From a virus: DNA of 64,000 nucleotides. The position numbers and the translations under genes were made by a program. Shown in pieces: positions 13,929 through 61,342 of this stretch; the first letter of the stretch is position 1; the number at the start of each line of letters is the position of its first letter. Where the stretch lies: positions 1 to 64,000 of the IMG/VR virus record IMGVR_UViG_3300034071_002576; one strand, 5' to 3'. Under the pieces are notes generated by a model. That model saw only the letters and a program-made list of their open reading frames with translations, was not told where the DNA came from and did not search any database.

Positions 13929-13973
13929 GACTTTTAGCGAACTCATTCGGCCCCAAAACGGAGTTTATTGACC

Positions 13974-15251
13974 ATGGGTAAGATTCGTTTAACGGGTGCC
14001 ACTAGCGGATATACCGAAATTCAAGCCGCCAGTGCTGCAGGTAACAACACTATTACTCTGCCCACGACAAACGGAGGTCAGGTAATTGTTAGCGATAGTT
14101 CTGGAAATGTAAATATTGATAGCGGTACTTTTTATGTTGATGCTTCGAATAACCGTGTAGGGATTGGCACTACGAGTCCTAATACGACACTAGAAGTATC
14201 AAGAGCATCAAACAATTTAGGCATAACAGAAGTTCTTCGTATTGGAGGAACTGCAGCAACCACTGGCGATGGCTACAAGCTAACTTTTTATCAAACTGCT
14301 ATAGGAGAATATGGTTACGTAGGATCTTATTACACTGGCGGGGTAAATTGGAATACCGTAGTCAATGGCAGCGCTGGCCTTGAGTTTAGGATTAACAACA
14401 GCGAACGCGCCCGCATTACATCCGATGGGAAGCTTTTAGTTGGCACGTCTACTGGTCCTTCTGACACAACTGTTCTTTTTTCTGGTAACGCGGGTGACGG
14501 TTCTACAGGGGACGGAAGGCTGCATCTAAATCGCGGTTCGACTCCTGGTAACGGGGTTCAGCTTGGAGCGCTTTATTTTTCAAGTAATAACGGAGCCAAC
14601 CAAGGCGCTTCCGTTGTTGCAGTAAGGGATGGCGGCACTTGGACTGCTGGAAGCAGCCATCCAACGCTCTTAAAGTTCTCCACTACCGCCGATGGAGCGA
14701 GCAGTCCGACGGAGCGGATGAGGATTGATAACGCTGGTGGCAGTGCATTTTTTGCCTCTAGCGTTACTGCAGTTGCAGCAAGGAACGCAGCGGCAGCAGG
14801 AACATCAACCTATAACATCGCCGGTCTTCATTCAGCCACAAGCACCACCAACGGAACGCTTTCTTTTGCTGTTTACACAAACGGCAATGTCCAAAACACT
14901 AATAACAGCTACGGCTCGCTTTCTGATGCCAAGCTAAAAGAGAACATCGTTGACGCTACTTCCCAGTGGTCTGACATCAAGGCACTTCAGGTCCGCAAAT
15001 ACAACTTCAAAGAAGAAACCGGCCAAGAGACCCACACCCAAATCGGCCTGATCGCCCAAGAAGCTGAGCTTGTTTCCCCTGGCCTTGTCAGCGAATCCCC
15101 CGACCGCGACGAAGACGGCAACGACCTTGGCACCGTCACCAAGAGCGTCAACTATTCGGTGCTCTACATGAAGGCAGTGAAGGCGCTGCAGGAAGCAATG
15201 GAGCGCATCGAAACCCTTGAGGCCAAAGTTGCAGCCCTTGAAGGCGTGTAG
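13974..15251 (+). CDS. tail fibre with C-terminal S74 intramolecular chaperone
   Basis: 425 residues from the ATG at 13974 (GGAG 10 nt upstream). The body has fibre repeats such as NNRVGIGTTSPNTTLEV and NSERARITSDGKLLVGTST. From about residue 317 the sequence SDAKLKENIV begins an endosialidase-type (peptidase S74) chaperone domain. This domain trimerises the fibre and normally cleaves itself off just before that Ser. It ends in a coiled coil (ALQEAMERIETLEAKVAALE). Sequence blocks are shared with the fibre at 58362 and the inverted fibre at 59747. Likely host-recognition protein. Confidence 0.85.
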   Translation: MGKIRLTGATSGYTEIQAASAAGNNTITLPTTNGGQVIVSDSSGNVNIDSGTFYVDASNNRVGIGTTSPNTTLEVSRASNNLGITEVLRIGGTAATTGDGYKLTFYQTAIGEYGYVGSYYTGGVNWNTVVNGSAGLEFRINNSERARITSDGKLLVGTSTGPSDTTVLFSGNAGDGSTGDGRLHLNRGSTPGNGVQLGALYFSSNNGANQGASVVAVRDGGTWTAGSSHPTLLKFSTTADGASSPTERMRIDNAGGSAFFASSVTAVAARNAAAAGTSTYNIAGLHSATSTTNGTLSFAVYTNGNVQNTNNSYGSLSDAKLKENIVDATSQWSDIKALQVRKYNFKEETGQETHTQIGLIAQEAELVSPGLVSESPDRDEDGNDLGTVTKSVNYSVLYMKAVKALQEAMERIETLEAKVAALEGV

Positions 15252-27167: not shown

Positions 27168-27983
27168 TCAAAAGTCGATACCTAGAGCTTTTGCTTGTTC
27201 CGCCGTAAGTTCGATTGGTTTTTTCGCCTTCGCACTAGGTGGTTCGTTCTCGACTTTTTCGTCCGCTTCCGCAGACTTCAGAGCCTTTGCTGGCCCTGCG
27301 CTAGCGAATGAACGTTCCGGGGGCGCGCCTCGCTCGGCAGCAAATCGAGCTTTGATTTCAGTATGATCTGCACCCAAGGGCAATTCGACCAAATCTGAGC
27401 CGGGGATGTGGGACTTGAGTGCCGACGCACACAGAGTGCCTCCCTTGTCGACAAGCCAACTGTTAACGTCTTCAATCAATTTGATTTCCTCCTCGTTCGC
27501 CGGCGGTCTGTCGGAGAATTCGAGAGCATTAAAATTGATCTTCGCGCCATCGGCGCCGGTCATTGGATCCCGCTCATTAAAGCTGCGAGTCACGAATTTC
27601 GTCGTGGTGATCACCGACGCGCAGTTGATTCGATTGTTGTAGAGCGTCTGGAAGTAACTGATGAAGTTCTTCTGAGAAGACTTGCCTGAAATCATCGAAG
27701 TCGTTACGCAACGCGGAGGCAACAACCTGTGATTTGGGCTGACTCCGATGTAAGCAATGCGCAGAAATTCTTCTTGGTTGCGCATACCTAGGTTGCCGAA
27801 GTAAGGAGTAAATCCCACCAGGACAAACTCAATAGGGATTCCGTTGTCGTTCCTATCGACAATCGCAGAGTCTGGGTCGACATCAGATTTCCAACGTCGA
27901 GCCTGTAGATCTATTCGAAGTGTGTGCGGCGGTACATTACACAGAATTTCGTCTTGGGAGAATTGACCAGCAATGAAAACCAT
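27168..27983 (-). CDS. hypothetical protein in replication cluster
   Basis: 271 residues. The first 200 look globular (QFSQDEILCNVPPHTLRIDL; VLVGFTPYFGNLGM). The rest is a low-complexity Ala/Lys/Glu tail ending in AEQAKALGIDF. I do not recognise the fold. Its place directly after the SSB-like gene and before a strong terminator suggests an accessory role in replication or recombination. Confidence 0.6.
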   Translation of the reverse strand: MVFIAGQFSQDEILCNVPPHTLRIDLQARRWKSDVDPDSAIVDRNDNGIPIEFVLVGFTPYFGNLGMRNQEEFLRIAYIGVSPNHRLLPPRCVTTSMISGKSSQKNFISYFQTLYNNRINCASVITTTKFVTRSFNERDPMTGADGAKINFNALEFSDRPPANEEEIKLIEDVNSWLVDKGGTLCASALKSHIPGSDLVELPLGADHTEIKARFAAERGAPPERSFASAGPAKALKSAEADEKVENEPPSAKAKKPIELTAEQAKALGIDF

Positions 27984-27996
27984 GGTTAGTACTTAA

Positions 27997-28641
27997 TCAG
28001 AGGGAGAAGTCAATAGAACCGATAGCAGCAGCAGCTACTTTACCTTTTTCAGGGTCGACAGCTTTCTTTGGAGCTTGTTTAGAGGACTTGGGGAGGTAGA
28101 GGATCTTATCTACAGTGTAATTGAGATAATTCCTATCATCCTTTTCACTTGTTGAGACCTTGCCTACTGCGATAGTAGGTGTGCCCGGTGCGAGTTCAGA
28201 AAGCTGTTTAGACAGTTCACCCCAGGCTGTCATCTTGAACCAAGCTGTTTCGTTTTCTTCCGTTTGCCATGCAAGTGAACGATTAGTTACCGTCGTATCT
28301 GAAAGTTCTACTTCATCGGCTTTAGGGCCAAGACCGCCCGTCGCCATGAAAACGTTGATGGCGAGGAGATCTTCGAAGTTATCTTCTGTCACAATCAACA
28401 TGGGTTGCATTTTCAACACACCATCAATTGTTGGTTTAGTAGGTCCGAGTGCGAGAACGGTTTGTCCTACTTCGAGTTTTTTAAGTAGTTTTCCTACATA
28501 GTGACTCGCTTGTTGGAGGAGTTGAAATTTTGTTTCGACTCTTTTGTCATTTGACGGAAGGGATTCGGCTAGAACATTTACGATGCCGTCGTTATCATCC
28601 GCCGCGGCGGTGATTTTCAGGCCCATTAGAAACAGATTCAT
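27997..28641 (-). CDS. single-stranded DNA-binding (OB-fold) protein, SSB-like
   Basis: 214 residues. The C-terminal half carries an SSB-like OB signature: SLAWQTEENETAWFKMTAWG, then ELSKQL, IAVGKVST and LNYTVDKILYLP. This is the order of strands seen in bacterial SSB (ETxWFxVxxWG...xYxVxxIxxL). A Lys/Pro/Ala-rich tail ends in IGSIDFSL, a hydrophobic tip like those SSBs use for partner binding. Expected to coat ssDNA for PolA and the primase-helicase. Overlaps the upstream regulator gene by 47 nt. Confidence 0.6.
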   Translation of the reverse strand: MNLFLMGLKITAAADDNDGIVNVLAESLPSNDKRVETKFQLLQQASHYVGKLLKKLEVGQTVLALGPTKPTIDGVLKMQPMLIVTEDNFEDLLAINVFMATGGLGPKADEVELSDTTVTNRSLAWQTEENETAWFKMTAWGELSKQLSELAPGTPTIAVGKVSTSEKDDRNYLNYTVDKILYLPKSSKQAPKKAVDPEKGKVAAAAIGSIDFSL

Positions 28642-29173
28642 TGCTTAGCTGTCTGTAGATGGTTGATCGGTGGACTTTGAGAGCCGCGGCGATCTGGGTG
28701 ACCCCGACGCCTTGGCCCCGGTAGGCTACTACCAATTTTCTGTCACCGCATGAGATTTTCTCGTTTTTGCCCTGAACGTACGTAAAGTGATACGGATTTA
28801 CACATTGTTTGCAGAAACACTTCGGTTTTGCTGTGACACCGTCTTTGGGTATATCTAAGTATTTGAGAATTATTGTTCGGATGTACTGTCTGGAACCCAG
28901 TACGTAGGTGCACGGAACCCCATTTGTAAATTTTCCTCCCCACTTGCAACATTCACCGTGGGTGAAATTGTTTTCAGCTAAGTCTTTGAAAAGCTGCGCC
29001 AACAGATTTTGTTCGCAGCTTCCATAGCTGAGATTGTACCTCTCTGCTCCTAGAGCTTTCGATATATCGCCCGCCTGTGCCTGCGCGTGTCCGCTGTCTT
29101 TTGCTGTTATCTGTAGCTCTAATTTTTTGTCTTCTTTTACCAGGGACAGTATGTAATTATCTTTAAAGACCAT
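28595..29173 (-). CDS. CVNPYH-type zinc protein with resolvase-like HTH
   Basis: 192 residues from the ATG at 29173 (the frame extends to a TTG at 29191). Contains ECCKWGG, then KCFCKQCVNPYHFTYVQGKN, and a C-terminal HTH (GVGVTQIAAALKVHRSTIYR) of the Hin/resolvase type. Third member of the CVNPYH family in the window (9747, 10812). The zinc-plus-HTH layout suggests a DNA-binding regulator or nuclease. Not assigned to a named family. Confidence 0.55.
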   Translation of the reverse strand: MVFKDNYILSLVKEDKKLELQITAKDSGHAQAQAGDISKALGAERYNLSYGSCEQNLLAQLFKDLAENNFTHGECCKWGGKFTNGVPCTYVLGSRQYIRTIILKYLDIPKDGVTAKPKCFCKQCVNPYHFTYVQGKNEKISCGDRKLVVAYRGQGVGVTQIAAALKVHRSTIYRQLSNESVSNGPENHRRGG

Positions 29174-29193
29174 AAGGCGAGTTTTTAGCAAGC

Positions 29194-30423
29194 TTACTTT
29201 CGCTTGCCGCCACCGCCACCTCCGCCGCCTCCGCCGCCGCCACCTCCGCCGCCGCCACCTCCGCCGCCGCCACCTCCGCCGCCGCCACCTCCGCCGCCGC
29301 CACCTCCGCCGCCGCCGCCACCTCCGCCGCCGCCACCTCCGCCGCCGCCGCCACCTCCGCCGCCTCCGCCGCCGCCTCCGCCACCGCCGCCACCGCCACG
29401 GTTGCCGCCACCGCCACCTCCGCCGCCACCGCTAGGTGCAGGAGAAGGAGCAGGTGCCGGAGCAGGTGCCGGAGCAGGCGCTGGTCTTGCTGCCGGTGCG
29501 GCTGCTGGTGCCGGGCGTGCTGCAGGAGCTTGACGAGCAGGTTCTTGTTGTTTCGGTACATTAAATTCTTTGTTTTGTTGCGCTGCTTTGTTTTGCGGAG
29601 CTTTAGCTGCTGAAGGAGAGGCGAAGAGCGTGGGAGCTTTATTACTTTGTTGTTGGCCTCCGCCAGCGGGTTTGACGGTGAACCCACCGTCTGCAGCTGG
29701 TTTAACCTTGATGCCGAGTTCTTTTTGCGCTGCGGCTGAGGGGGCTATTGCTGATCTCGATGCAGCTTTGATTATCTGATTCTCGGATAAACCCTGCTTC
29801 TGTAAGTATTTAATATCTTGTGTGTTGAATCCCGCTCCACCTCTTTTAGCTAAATCAAATGTTTGGCCTGCGACTTTAACAATATTTGTTTTTTTAGCAG
29901 GAGTCGTTTGCGTTTGCGTTTGCGTTTGAGTTACTTCGGGGGCGGCTTCTTCCGCACCTAAATAATCGTTTAAATAATCATCCAAGTAAGACTGAAAGTC
30001 AAACTCTTCGTAGCCTCCGTCCCCTCCTGCGCCAGTATCTCCGTAGTCTCCAAAACCGCCAGAGTCTCCGAAATCGAAAAAAGATGTGTCAAACTCACCG
30101 CCGGTTAAATCTGAGTATTGTTGACCCTGCAAGCTTTGCAGCAAATCATCAATACCTAGTTGCTTACGTAAATCAGCCATTTTCGCAGCCGTGGCCTCAG
30201 TCGCCGCCGCTTTTTGTTTCGCTATAGCTTCTTCCAGCGCTTTTCGCGCTGATTCGCGTACGGCAAATCCTTCCTGCCTTTCCGTCTCTGACGAGGGACC
30301 TATTCGCCGACTTCCTTGGAGTTTGAATACTCCGGTGTACGCTTTTTCTTGAACTGCCTTAGTTAAGTCCGTCCCTGTTGTTCCTGGCAGTGTTCTGGGC
30401 GCAGATGCTAGTCGCCGAGCCAT
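29194..30423 (-). CDS. polyglycine-tailed putative virion protein
   Basis: 409 residues. The N-terminal 110 are helical, residues about 110-150 are Gly/Asp/Phe-rich, and about 180-225 form a small domain (GQTFDLAKRGGAGFNTQDIK then YLQKQGLSENQII) shared with the next gene upstream. A Pro/Ala tract precedes the tail, where 73 glycines in two runs (9 and 64, broken by Asn-Arg) lead to GKRK. The glycine codons form a nearly pure GCC/ACC/TCC-type microsatellite at 29206-29430. Function unknown; the length of the tract probably varies between isolates. Confidence 0.6.
   Translation of the reverse strand: MARRLASAPRTLPGTTGTDLTKAVQEKAYTGVFKLQGSRRIGPSSETERQEGFAVRESARKALEEAIAKQKAAATEATAAKMADLRKQLGIDDLLQSLQGQQYSDLTGGEFDTSFFDFGDSGGFGDYGDTGAGGDGGYEEFDFQSYLDDYLNDYLGAEEAAPEVTQTQTQTQTTPAKKTNIVKVAGQTFDLAKRGGAGFNTQDIKYLQKQGLSENQIIKAASRSAIAPSAAAQKELGIKVKPAADGGFTVKPAGGGQQQSNKAPTLFASPSAAKAPQNKAAQQNKEFNVPKQQEPARQAPAARPAPAAAPAARPAPAPAPAPAPAPSPAPSGGGGGGGGGNRGGGGGGGGGGGGGGGGGGGGGGGGGGGGGGGGGGGGGGGGGGGGGGGGGGGGGGGGGGGGGGGGKRK
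29206..29430. repeat. GGN-codon microsatellite encoding polyglycine
   Basis: 225 nt built on the plus strand from CCGCCGCCACCT-like units, interrupted only by ACGGTT at 29398-29403. Strong strand bias and extreme local GC in an otherwise roughly 50% GC genome. It should be prone to slippage in steps of 3 or 15 nt. The minus strand is G-rich with many GG runs. Confidence 0.9.
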
Positions 30424-30425
30424 AT

Positions 30426-31277
30426 TTATTTCCTCTTACCGCCTCTTGCTGCTGGACGTGCTGCTGGACGTGCTGCTGGACGTGCAATTGGTGCCGATGC
30501 TGTGCGAGCAATGGTTTTTCGCGCCGTTGTGGTTAATGTCTGCGCCTGGTTTGTTGCAGTTGGTTTGGTGCTGCTGGCTCTGGGCTTCAGTTGATCAATT
30601 AGTTTTTGTGCTGATGTGGAAATCCTCTGACCACCCGCAGCAGCTTTTTTCGAAAGGTTTTTTATTTGCGAAGCAGTCCAACCTTGCTTTTGTAGATACC
30701 GGATGTCGTCTCCGCCTAAAGCCGCACCTCCTTTAGTGCCTAGGTTGTAGTTTTTACCGCCGACGTTTAATGTTGCTCCTTTTTTAGGTCTAGGTTGAGC
30801 GGGGCCGCTCACCGCCGCATTCACCGTATCCTCCGCCGTTCCCTCCGCGGCTTGCTGCGGCATGTATTGACTCAACAGATTCTCCCAATCCGGCATCTCG
30901 AACTGAGGCGTCTCGAATTCAGGCATCTCGAATTGCGGCATTTCAAATTTAGGCATCTCCATCTGAGATCCGTACATGCCTGCGTTCCCTAATGCCGACA
31001 TCAACTGATCGATACCTAAAGCGGATCTCAGCCCCGCGATGTCAGTAGCAGGGGCTTGTTGTGTTGTTGTTACAGGAGTTGTTGATGCGGTTGGTAGCGC
31101 GGGCACAGCTTTAGCGCCTTCGTCTCTTTCTGCCTGCGTCCCACCCCCGAGTCGGCCGCCTCGAGAACCTTTTAGGGAAGCTTGAGCTTGTTTTAGCGCT
31201 TCCGTGGCGGCAGCCAGCGTATCCGCGGGCAGCGCCGCTCCCTCACCTAAAGCTTGCCCCGCAAAGCGCCGCCGCAT
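30426..31277 (-). CDS. paralogue of the polyglycine protein, Arg/Ala/Pro tail
   Basis: 283 residues, 2 nt upstream of its paralogue. Shared parts are a helical start, the stretch LRSALGIDQLMSAL (LRKQLGIDDLLQSL in the paralogue), the GKNYNLGTKGGAALGGDDIR-YLQKQG domain at about 170-215, and the ending GGKRK. It also has a repeat of EMPKFEMPQFEMPEFETPQF type (about 105-130). The tail is a PAARPAAR repeat instead of polyglycine. Tandem duplication with divergent low-complexity tails. Structural or nucleic-acid-associated role inferred. Confidence 0.6.
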   Translation of the reverse strand: MRRRFAGQALGEGAALPADTLAAATEALKQAQASLKGSRGGRLGGGTQAERDEGAKAVPALPTASTTPVTTTQQAPATDIAGLRSALGIDQLMSALGNAGMYGSQMEMPKFEMPQFEMPEFETPQFEMPDWENLLSQYMPQQAAEGTAEDTVNAAVSGPAQPRPKKGATLNVGGKNYNLGTKGGAALGGDDIRYLQKQGWTASQIKNLSKKAAAGGQRISTSAQKLIDQLKPRASSTKPTATNQAQTLTTTARKTIARTASAPIARPAARPAARPAARGGKRK

Positions 31278-31303: not shown

Positions 31304-31807
31304 TTAACTGGTCTGCTGGGAATCTGTTCGGGTGAAGTATCTACGTAAACTATGCCCTTTTTTTACAACCATATCTAAGGTTTTTACATAGTCTGCTGCA
31401 TCTTCGTATGATTTAAACGACTTAGCTTCCTTGTTATTGTCAGTATATTCTACTACTTTATTATCCTGCATTACTTTTTTTACATAACCGCCCTTTGGCG
31501 CGCAGATCAACCAAGTCTCACGAAACCTTAAATGGGCGAGCTTGGCCACTTCAGCCTCGGTGTATAAAACACATTTTGGTTGCAGTTTACTTTGTGCGGC
31601 AGGTTTCTTTGTCTTTTTTAGATTTACTTGAATTTTGTGTTGCCGCTTCAGAGCTCTGGCTTTGTTGCTCGCTACCAGAGGAGACTCGAAAGATTCCTCT
31701 AACAGAAATATATCTTCTTCTCCTGTGATGAACGCGAAGTATCGGTCTCCCGCCCGGACTGTGAAAATTTCCTTTTCCGGCCCCCGTGGGATTCGTACCA
31801 GTTCCAT
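31304..31807 (-). CDS. hypothetical protein, 167 aa
   Basis: Begins MELVRIPRGPEKEIFTVRAG, mixed beta/alpha, Lys-rich centre (KIQVNLKKTKKPAAQSK). No motif recognised. Located 24 nt after the PolA gene in the same leftward direction, so probably co-transcribed with it. Confidence 0.6.
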   Translation of the reverse strand: MELVRIPRGPEKEIFTVRAGDRYFAFITGEEDIFLLEESFESPLVASNKARALKRQHKIQVNLKKTKKPAAQSKLQPKCVLYTEAEVAKLAHLRFRETWLICAPKGGYVKKVMQDNKVVEYTDNNKEAKSFKSYEDAADYVKTLDMVVKKGHSLRRYFTRTDSQQTS

Positions 31808-31831: not shown

Positions 31832-33730
31832 TTACTTCGCCGACCAGTCATCGCCTATGCCCGGTTCCGCTACTAATCTCGTTTTTTCGAACACAGACGC
31901 ACCAGCATTTACCATGATTTCGGCAAGCTTATCTTTCCAGAAATTCTCCAATCCTTCTCGGACTTCTAGTACGCATTCATCGTGTACCACTGCGATTAAA
32001 CGCACATCGTTGTTTAGATGGTCATTAAGCTCGCCGAGCGCTACTTTTAAAATGTCCGCACCTGTCCCCTGGATTAGTGTGTTAGCTGCGATTGTCATTC
32101 GAGCATCGTCGTACGACAGCAACCGACGCCGCCCCAGAGCGGTTCGCGTGTAACACCAGCCGTCTTGGACTAAAGCGCCGCGTTGACGGTGCCATTCCCT
32201 CAGGCGCGGGTACGCACTGTGGAATTTACTGTGCAGTATCTTGCTCTCCGACAGACTTAGCTGTACGCCGAACGAAGCCGCTGCGTATGTTTTGAACTTA
32301 CGGAACCCAATTCCATAAATAAACCCGAAGTTGGCTCCTTTAGCCATCTGCCTCTGTTGCTTTGTGACGTCTGATATATCGCAGTCATTTACTAAGCTTG
32401 CTGTGAGTGTGTGCAAATCTATGTCGGTATTGTACGCTTCTTGCATTTGAGGGATGTTAGCTAACTCCGCGAGTAGGCGTAATTCCATCTGCGAGTAGTC
32501 CGCGATGATCAGTTTGTACCCAGGAGACGCTACAAAGGCTTCCCGAAATAGTTTTGATCGCGGAACCTGCTGAAGATTCACAGCGAACGTTGTTTTTGTT
32601 TTAGTCTTAGCCGTTTTCGGCGCCCCTGCGCACGTAAACCGACCACTGTTGGCGCCCACTTGATTGTAGAAGCTGTGGATCCTGTGAGTTACTGGGTTTA
32701 TGTTCTGAATCAGCTTTTCAGCATGCTCTAGACTTGTTTCAATTTTTACGCGTTCTCGGTACAGCAGAAGCACTGCATCTTTGCTATCAAACTCCGCCAG
32801 CGATATTTGGTTCAGTGTGCTTTTTCCTGTCTCTTCGTTCTGAGGCAACGCGATACCGCACAGGTCAAAAGCCTTTGCCACTTGCGTGGTCGAACCGGGG
32901 TTAAATTCCTTGTTTGCCTTCTTGCCCACGGCTACCGCGCCGTCCACTGTCCGAGGCAGTTTGTTTTCTGCGGGGAGTTTCGCGTCTAATGCTTCTACAA
33001 ATTCTGTTGTTTTTTCGTTTAATTGTGTCTCCAAACTTACCTTAAGTTTATGTAAACGTTCAGTATTAACGTTGAATCCTGTGTAACTCATTTTTGCTAC
33101 GGGGCGTATGCACTTTGATTCAATACTGTAGACTCCTATTAAAGCTTCCTCGTTCAGTTCTTTTAGCTGCTCCGCTGCGATTTTTGGAAGAATATCGACG
33201 TCTGTCGCCGCATACTCGACTTGGTCGAGTGTCAAAGTTTCTGCGCTCCAGTCCGTTTTGCGTTGTTCTTTATCTAGTTCTATTTCTAGTCGACGTTCAG
33301 CGACTGCCTTGAGCGAGCAGGATACGTCGGCGAAATAAGGTTTGTTGGATTTAGGTGAGTATTTTTTCTCTTGAAATCCCGCCCTTAAAACTCTTTCGGC
33401 TATATACGTGTCAAATATTTTATTCTTGTAGTCGATACCTAAAGAGTAGAAAAACTGTAAATCGAAGCCTAAGTTGTGCCCTAGGAGTAGTTCTCGACTC
33501 TCGATTAAAATTTTTAACTCATCTAGAACAGATGTTTTGAAGATATCAATTACGTGAATCGTTCGGTCTTCGACAGCGGGGGAGGCGTCGCAGAGCTGAA
33601 CCAACCGACATTTTGACACCGTGGCCTGAAGCCCTGTTGTTTCTGTATCAGCACATAGTTTGCTGAACTTGTCCAACTCGTTTATCGCCTTTAGTGCTTC
33701 TGCGTCTTCGGTGATGTAATTGATTTTCAT
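31832..33730 (-). CDS. polA: DNA polymerase, family A, with 3'-5' exonuclease
   Basis: 632 residues. Exonuclease domain: ADTETTGL (DxE, residues about 28-34), GHNLGFDLQFF and the YAATDVDILPKI end motif, so proofreading residues are present. Polymerase domain: motif A LIIADYSQMELRLL, motif B RQMAKGANFGFIYG, and motif C VHDECVLEV. It lacks a 5' nuclease domain, as is usual for phage enzymes. This is the replicative polymerase of the module that includes the D5-type primase-helicase. It begins just after a terminator, so it probably has its own promoter or depends on readthrough. Confidence 0.92.
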   Translation of the reverse strand: MKINYITEDAEALKAINELDKFSKLCADTETTGLQATVSKCRLVQLCDASPAVEDRTIHVIDIFKTSVLDELKILIESRELLLGHNLGFDLQFFYSLGIDYKNKIFDTYIAERVLRAGFQEKKYSPKSNKPYFADVSCSLKAVAERRLEIELDKEQRKTDWSAETLTLDQVEYAATDVDILPKIAAEQLKELNEEALIGVYSIESKCIRPVAKMSYTGFNVNTERLHKLKVSLETQLNEKTTEFVEALDAKLPAENKLPRTVDGAVAVGKKANKEFNPGSTTQVAKAFDLCGIALPQNEETGKSTLNQISLAEFDSKDAVLLLYRERVKIETSLEHAEKLIQNINPVTHRIHSFYNQVGANSGRFTCAGAPKTAKTKTKTTFAVNLQQVPRSKLFREAFVASPGYKLIIADYSQMELRLLAELANIPQMQEAYNTDIDLHTLTASLVNDCDISDVTKQQRQMAKGANFGFIYGIGFRKFKTYAAASFGVQLSLSESKILHSKFHSAYPRLREWHRQRGALVQDGWCYTRTALGRRRLLSYDDARMTIAANTLIQGTGADILKVALGELNDHLNNDVRLIAVVHDECVLEVREGLENFWKDKLAEIMVNAGASVFEKTRLVAEPGIGDDWSAK

Positions 33731-57684: not shown

Positions 57685-58362
57685 ATGGCAACACGTCGTC
57701 CACTAGTACTTGTTAACGGCGTTACCTCGGAGCTGCCTGCTGGCGACGTTGTTGTAGATCCCTCGGGGATTGCGCCAGGCTCAGCTAATCAGGTTCTTCA
57801 AACCAATGCTGGCGGCACTGCGACTGAGTGGCGCAGCAACGTTGTTGTACCTGGCACACTCAATACCGCTGGTGTAGCTGTTTTTGCTAGCGGTGTCGGG
57901 ATTTCTGGCGCGGCGCAGTTCGGCGGCACTGCCACTGTGGCTGGGGCGGTTACTCTGCAGGGGGCCGCCACCGTTGCTGGGACGGCCACTCTTCAAGGGG
58001 CTGTAACCGTTTCCGGTGCTGCGACGTTTGGCGGCGCGGTTATAGTTAATACTTCTGGTGCTCTGACGCTGCCTGAGGGTACGACGGCAGAACGGCCTGC
58101 GGTTCCTGCGTCTGGTGATATTCGGTTTAATACCACTCTTACTCAGTTCGAGGGTTATAACGGTACTGCTTGGGGTGCGTTAGGTGGCGGCGGCGGCGCC
58201 GTGGGCTCAGGCACAAACGCAGTTTTTTATGAGAATGATACGACCGTTACAGGTAGCTACACTATAACTACGGGTAAAAACGCAATGACCGCTGGTCCCA
58301 TCACGGTTCTCAGCGGTGTCACCGTTACTGTTCCCTCCGGTTCTAGCTGGACTGTTGTCTAA
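57685..58362 (+). CDS. tail-fibre-like repeat protein
   Basis: 225 residues. PLVLVNGVTSELPAGDVVVD at the start, then repeated units around AGAVTLQGAATVAGTATLQG, followed by a GDIRFNTTLTQFEGYNGTAW unit and a beta-rich tail. Typical of fibre proximal segments. Stop overlaps the start of the S74 fibre gene (TAATG), so the two are co-translated. Confidence 0.7.
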   Translation: MATRRPLVLVNGVTSELPAGDVVVDPSGIAPGSANQVLQTNAGGTATEWRSNVVVPGTLNTAGVAVFASGVGISGAAQFGGTATVAGAVTLQGAATVAGTATLQGAVTVSGAATFGGAVIVNTSGALTLPEGTTAERPAVPASGDIRFNTTLTQFEGYNGTAWGALGGGGGAVGSGTNAVFYENDTTVTGSYTITTGKNAMTAGPITVLSGVTVTVPSGSSWTVV

Positions 58363-59477
58363 TGTCTATCGAAATTAATGGCGCTGGTGTTATCACCGGT
58401 GTAGATAGCCTCAGCACTCCTGCTGTTACTAACGCGGCGGGTTCGGCTTCCGCTCCCAGTATTACGTTTACTGGTGACAGTAATACTGGTATATATTCTC
58501 CGGCAGCGGATACTATTGCTTTTACAGAGGGTGGCGTCGAATCTTTAAGGATTGATTCTTCAGGAAGAGTAGGGATTGGCTCTACTGCGCCTGATGCTCC
58601 ACTACAAGTAAACTCCGCTGCCGTTGGTGGCGCTGTAAATGATGGCATCAAGATTCACATGCCCGCCAGTTTTGGCGGCGGTGGGACGGGGAACAGCTTG
58701 TTATTTACGGCCTTAAATGGATCATTTGCTCAAGTAAACTATTCATCTATTGCAAGTTTAATCGAAACAAACACTGCAGGATCTCATTCTGGTATTCTAA
58801 CCTTCAGAACTGCTTCAGGTGGCACTAATACCGAACGCGCCCGCATCGACAGCTCGGGACGCCTGTTAGTTGGCACGTCTACAGGTGTTGACGGAGCCTT
58901 GGTGCGCATAGAAGGTGGCATTTCTATCAACGGAGTAAACAATACATCTGCTGTTAACTCTGCTGGCCATTACATCTCACCTGTCGTCAACAGTGCTGGT
59001 CAGAATACATGTAAATCAGCGACTAATGATACAAGTGGGTCGGGAGACCTGTGGCAATACTCGCGAATCAATACGGATGGAGTTATCTTCAGATTCCATA
59101 GAGGAACAACATCGGTCGGAACTGTTTCAATCACATCTAGCTCTACTTCTTATAACACATCTTCCGACTACCGTCTAAAGGAAAACGTTGTTCCACTAAC
59201 TGGTGCTGTTGACCGCATCAATCAGCTTCAGGTTCACCGCTTTAACTTCATCACAGAGCCCGACAAGACAGTTGACGGTTTCATTGCTCACGAAGCCCAA
59301 GCCGTTGTCCCCGAGTGCGTTACTGGAACAAAGGATGAAGTTGATGCTGACGGCAACCCCGTCTACCAAGGCATTGACCAGTCCAAGCTAGTGCCTTTGC
59401 TGACGGCTGCATTGCAGGAAGCACTTCAGAAGATCGAAACCCTTGAGCAGCGTCTAAATGATGCTGGCATTGCCTAG
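58362..59477 (+). CDS. tail fibre with S74 chaperone, second copy
   Basis: 371 residues. Body units include GDSNTGIYSPAADTIAFTEG, SSGRVGIGSTAPDAPLQV and TERARIDSSGRLLVGTST. An S74 domain starts near residue 268 with SDYRLKENVV and ends in a coiled coil (ALQKIETLEQRLNDAGIA). The Ser-Asp pair at the cleavage site is present. It shares DNA blocks with the fibre at 13974 and is followed by the same 15-nt sequence TAGTCCTACTCNCTA. Probable alternative or additional receptor-binding protein. Confidence 0.85.
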   Translation: MSIEINGAGVITGVDSLSTPAVTNAAGSASAPSITFTGDSNTGIYSPAADTIAFTEGGVESLRIDSSGRVGIGSTAPDAPLQVNSAAVGGAVNDGIKIHMPASFGGGGTGNSLLFTALNGSFAQVNYSSIASLIETNTAGSHSGILTFRTASGGTNTERARIDSSGRLLVGTSTGVDGALVRIEGGISINGVNNTSAVNSAGHYISPVVNSAGQNTCKSATNDTSGSGDLWQYSRINTDGVIFRFHRGTTSVGTVSITSSSTSYNTSSDYRLKENVVPLTGAVDRINQLQVHRFNFITEPDKTVDGFIAHEAQAVVPECVTGTKDEVDADGNPVYQGIDQSKLVPLLTAALQEALQKIETLEQRLNDAGIA

Positions 59478-59746: not shown

Positions 59747-61342
59747 TCAGCAAGCCAGCAGCACGCAAGGCACGCAGTAGCTGCCATCGTCGTAGGTGCA
59801 GGTGATGTGGTTGGAAGTCACCTTGGCGATGGTTTTGCTGCGAACGATGTCATCGTCTTGGGGCTTGGCGGTGCCGTCACCAGCAGACATCAGCAGTTGA
59901 CCGCGATGCACTGGAATTCCCGCTGAGATACGGATGATGAAGTCACCCGTCATTGCGCAGTAGAAATCATCGGTGTAGGTGTCATCGTCATCGTCCCAGC
60001 ACTGGAACACGCCGGCCACGTTTGGGTCGCCTTCAACGTCACTCACCTGGGTACGGTTGAGTTGCTCATTATCTTCTTCACCCCATGCACACATCTCGTC
60101 AATGTTTTTCAGCACAGTACCGCGCAAAATTTCAGTGCGTTCCGCTCCACCAGGGAGCTGGGACCAGCGACTTAGGTGAGCACCGTTGTAGCTGACGGTT
60201 GTGCCCGAAACGGAAATAGAACCTTCCGATGTTTGTGCTTGTTGAAAATCAATAAGCGTTCCATCGCTTGCTGGTCTATTTATGAGCTGTCCACCAACGC
60301 TGTTTACCTGCCAAATGCGCTGAGTAGTTGAGTTACTAATATTGCTAAATGCTTGAATGAGTGCCCCGCCAGTGCCTCCTGCTGGGTTGGCGTTGTCAAT
60401 CCGCAAAGCAGCAGAAGTTTCCCCGTTAGCGTCAACGTTTTGCGAAATCCTTAGCGCGTAAGTATTTGCGCCGCTGCTATTACCATTATGGCCTTGGATA
60501 TGTGCTAAACACTGCCCAGATGAGCTGTTATTGTAAACACCAAATAGCAAAGGTTGTTGACCGGAATAGCTGCCAGACGTTCCACCGGGGATGTCAACTA
60601 AACCAGTGGAGGAAATCCTCATCCGCTCCGTCGGGCTGCTCGCTCCGTCGGCGGTAGTGGAGAACACTAAGCGGCCTGGATAATCACCTGATCCAGCATT
60701 TGCATCGGCGGTGCATCGAATCTGTGCGAATGAATTGCCGGACGAGTCGTTAAACTTTATGTAGCCAATGTCCTCGCCCGAGGTGATTGAGGTTGCAGCC
60801 TCTCCACGTTGTATTGAAATAGATCCATGTCCAGTTGGGCCAGTGGTATTTCCTTGAACAACCGCTAAGTCAAACTGGCCATCACCTGCGCTAGGCGCAG
60901 TAGACGTGCCAACTAAGAGGCGTCCCGATGTATCAATACGAGCTCGTTCTGAATCACTCGTCCAAAGGGTTAGAGGTAAGTTGGCCCCCGTTTGGCCTTG
61001 AATACGAAAAGTGCTGCCAATTGAACCAAGTTGGCCAACGCCTGCTCCTGAAGAGTCTCTGATGGCTAGTACGCCTTGGACTGTTAAGGCTTGATCTGGG
61101 CTAGTAGTGCCAATCCCTACTTGCCCTGAAGAGCTAATATAAAGTCGTGCGGAACCCCCCGTGGTGAGCGCAACCTGATCCCCACCAGGACTATAAATAC
61201 CTGTATTCGCGTCGCCAGTTACATAAATAGAAGGGGCGGATGCCGAGCCGGTTTGAATCGCTACGTTGCCGGACGCATCTAGAGCAAGGTTTGTGCTTGC
61301 CGAATCAGGGCTCTTGAGATTGTAGGTATTCAGGGTGCTCAT
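59747..61342 (-). CDS. third fibre-type protein, inverted, with a different C-terminal domain
   Basis: 531 residues. The N-terminal 260 residues use the same unit set as the S74 fibres (GDANTGIYSPGGDQVALTTG, SSSGQVGIGTTSPDQALTVQ, TTADGASSPTERMRI). The C-terminal 150 residues differ: YNGAHLSRWSQLPGG, then LKNIDEMCAWGEEDNEQLN, DFYCAMTGDFIIRISAGIPV and HRGQLLMSAGDGTAKPQDDD. This layout resembles self-cleaving fibre chaperones of the G2 type rather than S74. Lying opposite to the other fibres, it may be an alternative adhesin. Confidence 0.7.
   Translation of the reverse strand: MSTLNTYNLKSPDSASTNLALDASGNVAIQTGSASAPSIYVTGDANTGIYSPGGDQVALTTGGSARLYISSSGQVGIGTTSPDQALTVQGVLAIRDSSGAGVGQLGSIGSTFRIQGQTGANLPLTLWTSDSERARIDTSGRLLVGTSTAPSAGDGQFDLAVVQGNTTGPTGHGSISIQRGEAATSITSGEDIGYIKFNDSSGNSFAQIRCTADANAGSGDYPGRLVFSTTADGASSPTERMRISSTGLVDIPGGTSGSYSGQQPLLFGVYNNSSSGQCLAHIQGHNGNSSGANTYALRISQNVDANGETSAALRIDNANPAGGTGGALIQAFSNISNSTTQRIWQVNSVGGQLINRPASDGTLIDFQQAQTSEGSISVSGTTVSYNGAHLSRWSQLPGGAERTEILRGTVLKNIDEMCAWGEEDNEQLNRTQVSDVEGDPNVAGVFQCWDDDDDTYTDDFYCAMTGDFIIRISAGIPVHRGQLLMSAGDGTAKPQDDDIVRSKTIAKVTSNHITCTYDDGSYCVPCVLLAC

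Follow-up and report, generated by a model that had tools for sequence, protein, structure and literature searches.

A phage protein with a length-variable polyglycine tail and a basic tip, encoded in a replication gene cluster

Which described proteins come closest to a phage protein that ends in a long run of glycine? Adhesins of the S16 gp38 type carry several short glycine-rich stretches, with loops between them, in a folded domain of a tail-fibre or hub protein. RGG/GAR-box nucleic-acid-binding proteins intersperse their glycines with Arg or Lys in repeated RGG or KGG motifs, and SSB proteins with a glycine-rich linker have an OB fold and an acidic C-terminal tip. The T4 internal proteins, which are packaged in the head and ejected, begin with a short conserved N-terminus and continue in a variable body, and the N-terminal targeting sequence is common to several proteins of a genome. 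The polyglycine-rich domain of the gp38 adhesin of Salmonella phage S16 and the related "brush" domains of siphoviral tail hubs are described in the portions consulted of PMC13243795. According to the consulted portions of a survey of low-complexity regions (PMC6821194), Gly, Ala and Pro are the residues most enriched in those of phages, which average 33 residues and reach 115, and GGC is the prevalent Gly codon in those of bacteria and archaea. A description of the protein reported here may yet exist; none was found in the literature searched, including the consulted portions of PMC8557907, PMC6821194 and PMC13243795.

The protein is encoded on the minus strand of the window, by which we mean the whole stretch of 64,000 nucleotides that was analysed (positions 1–64000 of an 86,340-base virus record). 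Its 409 residues end in PSPAPS-G9-NR-G64-KRK. A preliminary description, made from the sequence alone, had given 73 glycines in two runs (9 and 64) with Asn-Arg between them and KRK at the end, and the translation agrees exactly, with the runs at residues 332–340 and 343–406. The 225 nt ascribed there to CCN repeats are the correct length, but 6 of them encode Asn-Arg and the other 219 are Gly codons. Similarly, "microsatellite" is right in that the tract is a tandem repeat and loose in that Tandem Repeats Finder gives periods of 15 and 18 nt, not single triplets (array 29206–29427: score 279, period 15, 14.2 copies). The parts of the protein are as follows; the tail region as a whole is 29197–29430.

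29194..30423, minus strand: polyglycine protein, stop codon included, 409 aa
30100..30423, minus strand: residues 1–108, basic N-terminus with predicted helices 46–88 and 91–108 (AlphaFold, composition)
29899..30099, minus strand: residues 109–175, acidic block, net charge −16, 12 of 67 residues aromatic (composition)
29659..29898, minus strand: residues 176–255, 80-aa module, predicted hairpin, three helices, hairpin (modelled alone: pLDDT 81.4, pTM 0.69)
29431..29658, minus strand: residues 256–331, Gln/Pro/Ala-rich linker, net charge +6 (composition)
29404..29430, minus strand: first Gly run, 9 residues (translation)
29398..29403, minus strand: Asn-Arg interruption (translation)
29206..29397, minus strand: second Gly run, 64 residues (translation)
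29197..29205, minus strand: basic tip Lys-Arg-Lys (translation; tip conserved)

The tail glycines are encoded by GGC (45), GGT (15) and GGA (13) and never by GGG, which accounts for 16.3% of the 215 Gly codons in nine neighbouring genes. This avoidance, together with the presence of such tails in 16 other contigs, shows that the tail is not a product of chance. The longest exact self-repeat within the tract is 74 nt, and the usual short sequencing read is longer than this but shorter than 225 nt; the tail itself is therefore safe and the exact count of 64 is not. An assembly artefact, which the preliminary description had named as its refutation, does not explain the tail as a one-off error, given the in-frame tails of the other contigs, and 64 is best read as approximate. 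Long polyglycine in viral contigs is uncommon, yet not unique. IMG/VR, scanned for exact GGN tracts about 31 units long, yielded at least 120 stretches; of the 82 tracts in the 80 loci listed, 42 have a longest open frame that is mainly Pro and 17 one that is mainly Gly, and among the matches listed one of the 17 Gly-reading tracts (L201) comes from the family described here. The repeat also gives rise, as a by-product, to an ORF of 109 aa on the opposite strand of the window (29204–29533, plus strand), 65 residues of which form a polyproline run.

The AlphaFold model of the whole protein has a mean pLDDT of 52.8, the better parts being the helix region 46–108 and residues 180–252. From residue 331 onward the pLDDT is 33–38 and no structure is predicted, in keeping with the flexible tail suggested earlier, low pLDDT being weak evidence in the case of polyglycine. 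The protein is thus modelled as mostly disordered, with one small folded module and a helix, and the net charge of its successive stretches is +6, −2, −16, +8, +6 and +4. The only fold match of note for the module is a protein of Krakvirus (prob 0.99, E 0.095, TM 0.54). A PDB fold search with the module returned 128 matches, none at E ≤0.001 (best 1.6), and a second PDB comparison, in which 231 of 232 chains aligned, singled out a rudivirus protein (Z 2.3, rmsd 4.7 over 54 residues), too weak a match for use. Nothing credible was found for the body in Pfam or PHROGs, and 19 module sequences matched eight Pfam families with one member each (best E 0.0011). A match to phrog_815 (E 3.5e-4, residues 319–405) covers the Pro/Ala/Gly end and was read as composition without a shuffled control. 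The PDB sequence search with a profile gave 96 sequences up to E 1, all of which we likewise read as composition; the best is TFIID subunit 10 (E 7.5e-5, profile positions 199–297), and many of the others among the 60 matches listed are antibody or engineered-linker chains that align in the glycine end.

Where does the gene lie? The cluster runs in the order PolA, gene X, small paralogue, polyglycine protein, HTH/HNH-like gene and SSB-like gene, and also includes a D5-type primase and an exonuclease. The polyglycine gene is co-directional with PolA, exonuclease and primase and has 2-nt gaps on either side; the cluster may be co-expressed in the manner of an operon. Its neighbours are as follows.

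31832..33730, minus strand: DNA polymerase family A with 3'-5' exonuclease domain (strong family match)
31304..31807, minus strand: gene X, 167 aa, conserved neighbour, no assigned function (locus comparison)
30426..31277, minus strand: small paralogue, 283 aa, same module, tail PAARGGKRK without polyglycine (E 2.6e-10)
28595..29191, minus strand: HTH/HNH-like gene, C-terminal HTH-like part and weak HNH/endonuclease match (below Pfam cut-offs)
27997..28641, minus strand: SSB-like gene (weak Pfam match, 21.2 bits against a cut-off of 26)
27168..27983, minus strand: 271-aa conserved neighbour, the survey marker (relatives in IMG/VR)

The identity of the HTH/HNH-like gene is clearer in its homologue in L126 than in the window. 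Its frame, followed back over 28595–29431 (minus strand), reads Arg and Trp through the polyglycine tract, and a frame shift would fuse both genes. The position between DNA polymerase I and the SSB-like gene, away from the tail-fibre matches at 13968–15251, 58362–59477 and 59747–61342, speaks against the adhesive virion tail that had been suggested, and in view of the replication gene cluster a tail fibre or adhesin is not our preferred explanation. The three tail-fibre genes, one of them on the opposite strand, match the same families (phrog_9942, phrog_18345 and phrog_19195), and an ORF adjoining a tail-fibre gene (57685–58362) holds two tandem copies of a 36-nt repeat at 57931–58011.

The virus, correctly taken for a phage in the preliminary description, is by its gene content an uncultured relative of cyanophage S-EIV1, which comes from a high-arctic lake: 26 ORFs of the window match Synechococcus phage S-EIV1 at E ≤1e-3, about 20 when short and antisense ones are left out. 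The polyglycine slot gene has no match in S-EIV1. The top-ranked match of PolA is Pseudanabaena phage PA-SR01 (27% identity), and the host is likely to be cyanobacterial. The highly conserved 271-aa protein, of unassigned function, has 365 relatives in IMG/VR and none by tblastn in named phages, which makes it a good marker for the S-EIV1-like group. A search of genome contigs with this marker found one 3.8-kb contig in a Balneolales MAG (L114, JAURMN010000017.1), which also holds phage genes neighbouring the marker; we take it for a probably mis-binned phage fragment and no proof of a Balneolales host.

The polyglycine gene is also present in close relatives in IMG/VR. From the 365 relatives of the marker the best 80 loci were kept, which with the window make 81; 9 are without a match to the HNH-like gene, 4 are without an ORF upstream of it, and 68 have an ORF in the slot of the polyglycine gene. 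A run of at least 8 glycines is present in 16 of these 68 slot loci (best 80 of 365, plus the window) and in L121, making 17 tails with that of the window counted, that of L025 having been recovered on re-reading of an automatic pick in the wrong frame. All 17 are in frame, none contains Asp or Glu, and all have at least two Lys or Arg in the last three residues. The glycines number from 13 (L060, with another body) and 20 (L032) up to 74 (L028), and GGG supplies 4 of the 769 Gly codons.

The polyglycine varies in length, as the preliminary description had predicted, and it does so fast. The bodies of the window protein, L024 and L027 differ by 3–7 nt in about 990 (98–99% identical) and carry tails of 78, 48 and 55 aa; the tail of L025 has 44 aa. 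Similarly, L034 and L036, whose bodies agree at 269 of 270 residues, have tails of 28 and 41 aa. Assembly error could lie behind some of these differences; the identical tails of two contig pairs with different IMG sample numbers (L035/L036 and L039/L040) speak against it. Pairs of bodies that lie further apart give dN/dS values of 0.09 (L030–L028), 0.10 (L030–L121), 0.13 (L028–L121) and 0.11 (L039–L041); values for the closest bodies (1.94, 0.64, 0.64, 0.30 and 0.91) were left unused because they come from 2–8 nt differences.

Across relatives the body in the slot is exchanged. The N-terminal form M[A/R]RRR..FAG...RGGRLG is retained in many other relatives, and slot proteins carry DUF4214 in L068 (E 8.9e-11) and L043 (E 2.1e-9), GGGSGGSKPS repeats in L054 and L056, Lys/Ala-rich ends in L044 and L084, and up to five module copies, three with E <1e-5, in L042. 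Lineages without the GGN repeat retain a low-complexity basic end (GGGSGGSKPS...KKK or AKAKA...KKK), so that it is the protein, and not the DNA repeat, that is kept. Of 13 virus records, 10 have a single match to the N-terminal profile and 3 have none; hence no set of proteins within a genome shares the slot N-terminus. Besides L025, automatic slot picks were judged wrong by eye where they had taken gene X (L058, L080–L082, L084–L086), a 103–119-aa ORF (L062, L075, L077–L079, L087) or a 90-aa ORF (L064–L066).

Among named phages, the module was found only in one T7-like phage, Krakvirus S39-C11 (uncultured phage MedDCM-OCT-S39-C11, AP013549 13047–14930; two copies, domain E 2.8e-8 and 3.4e-6), in a protein of 627 aa whose gene lies just before the head-tail connector. 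By tblastn against named phages, the L084 slot protein finds Krakvirus alone, the Krakvirus protein matches only itself, and the slot proteins of L068, L042, L065 and L099 find nothing. In L126 (5458–7023), modules 60% identical to those of the Krakvirus protein occupy the replication slot, which adjoins homologues of gene X, PolA, the HNH-like gene, the SSB-like gene and the marker; this slot protein has RGG/KGG repeats and ends in KRKGGNKRRR. The module has likely been exchanged between unrelated phages, to judge from the L126 locus and Krakvirus.

The 283-aa neighbour is a paralogue of the polyglycine protein. Of 14 family loci, seven have gene X, the small copy, the polyglycine copy and the HNH-like gene, and seven have gene X, one copy and the HNH-like gene. 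In the tree, which carries a long-branch warning, eight polyglycine copies group with L032 (100/99), and the single-copy polyglycine genes L039 and L041 fall among the small copies. The N-half of L032 is of the small type (49–57% identity to small copies against 31–35% to big ones) and its module of the big type (61–63% against 25–41%), which by these identities makes L032 a chimera of both paralogues. This chimera and the tree placement indicate that the polyglycine tail has been retained, lost or transferred among the copies. The small paralogue, for which tblastn against named phages was empty, has FEMPxFEMP-type acidic-aromatic repeats at 30892–30967 (minus strand), also present in L032, L039, L041, L044 and L054.

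How general are the basic tip and the RGG-like motifs? At least two Lys or Arg occupy the last three residues in 27 of 28 distinct family proteins, L042 being without a basic tip; among the distinct ORFs of eight neighbouring genes, 13 of 334 have such an end. Because some tails are part of the family profile, this count leans in favour. RGG or KGG occurs in 40 of 50 distinct slot ORFs, some of them erroneous picks, compared with 22 of the 334 controls, and part of the count reflects the conserved N-terminal RGGRLG and the greater chance of RGG in Gly-rich proteins. The marker gene supplies 13 of the 22 control matches. Only one RGG stands among the 78 residues of the window tail, and a run of 64 glycines differs from the usual RGG box.

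We propose, tentatively and with somewhat less than even confidence, that the polyglycine protein is a disordered RGG/KGG-like accessory of phage DNA metabolism whose glycines form a length-tolerant spacer carrying a selected basic tip. Encoded alongside PolA and the SSB-like protein, it would have an accessory role in phage DNA (or RNA) metabolism, with a helix and one small folded module lying amid disordered, charged blocks: a basic N-terminus, an acidic aromatic block and a basic linker. At the C-terminus the glycines would be a flexible spacer of the RGG/KGG kind that holds out the tip (KRK, KKK or GKR), and the tip or RGG-like tails would probably make contact with nucleic acid or with an acidic partner. 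The spacer may change quickly through slippage or through unequal exchange between its repeat units, and selection would purge frame shifts and tip loss, tolerating changes of length and, over longer times, even of composition. A gene order (X, slot, HNH-like gene) that is the same at all 14 family loci checked, the low body dN/dS of the four divergent pairs, the in-frame tails free of acidic residues, the frequent basic tip and RGG/KGG motifs, and the basic ends kept by lineages without the GGN repeat argue for this proposal; the single RGG of the window tail, the weak SSB and HNH labels of the neighbours, the DUF4214-body relatives without basic tails, the head-tail connector beside the module's other known host gene, and the absence of a match to any nucleic-acid-binding family or solved fold argue against it. 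An ampler version, to which we give only a slim chance, sees in the slot protein an evolvable scaffold: a charge-patterned disordered protein, its acidic aromatic block flanked by basic ones, that would gather PolA and the SSB-like protein round phage DNA as a condensate in a replication compartment, with slippage in the glycine spacer tuning spacing or valence and with entire tails or modules swapped between phages, unrelated ones included.

The same variation in length on near-identical bodies would also be expected of a slippage-driven repeat at a tolerant C-terminus, with no function of its own, where the body and perhaps the tip are what matters. Tail compositions that differ among lineages and a small paralogue that lives without polyglycine fit this reading, yet 17 tails that all stay in frame and lack acidic residues, the near-absence of GGG codons, and polyglycine in both paralogue clades and with another body (L060) do not, and we regard it as unlikely, if a serious contender. 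A virion protein (decoration, internal or ejected), its disordered or modular C-terminus displayed or delivered, of which the adhesive idea is one form, is in our judgement rather improbable: the conserved N-terminus with exchangeable bodies, including DUF4214, and the Krakvirus gene before the connector suit it, but the replication-cluster location in the window and relatives, the same location of the L126 modules, the single N-terminal match per record at most and the lack of any structural-protein family match go against it. Finally, the repeat might act as DNA or RNA, through GGN frame-shifting or pausing that yields a fusion with the downstream HNH-like gene, or as a G-quadruplex. In the window the HNH-like frame stays open across the entire tract (29431 to 28595), and it runs into the repeat in L009, L010, L011 and L015–L017; such openness is expected, since pure GGN repeats contain no stop codon in the sense-strand frames. 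With GGG codons avoided, G runs of at most 6 nt and lineages whose other tails are without the repeat, we consider this highly improbable.

Long homopolymeric Gly tracts are easily dismissed as artefacts. Here polyglycine turns up repeatedly and in frame within a conserved cluster, across a large group of uncultured phages whose hosts are probably cyanobacteria, and its natural variants of length and composition are a ready series for asking whether a disordered spacer is selected for its length, its composition or only its tip.

How, then, does the locus compare with known systems? Like S16 gp38 and the brush domains, the protein has long Gly stretches at or near its C-terminus; in these, however, oligo-glycine lies within a folded domain of a tail-fibre or hub protein, whereas our protein is encoded among PolA, gene X, HTH/HNH-like and SSB-like genes and has runs of 9 and 64 with no predicted fold. 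The consulted portions of the low-complexity survey (PMC6821194) hold no case like it. Frequent RGG/KGG in slot proteins and the basic end recall RGG/GAR-box proteins, most strongly in L126 and L060, but the window tail has one RGG only and no RNA- or DNA-binding domain was recognised. SSB proteins differ in that the polyglycine protein has no SSB match in Pfam or PHROGs and its tip is KRK. The slot proteins resemble T4 internal proteins in their conserved N-terminus and variable body and differ in having one slot per genome. The Krakvirus S39-C11 protein shares the module by sequence profile and predicted fold but is longer (627 aa) and without a polyglycine tail. Finally, as at a slippage contingency (on/off) locus, near-identical genomes differ here in repeat length, assembly error being partly possible; variants of such a locus go out of frame, whereas all 17 tails of this family are in frame.
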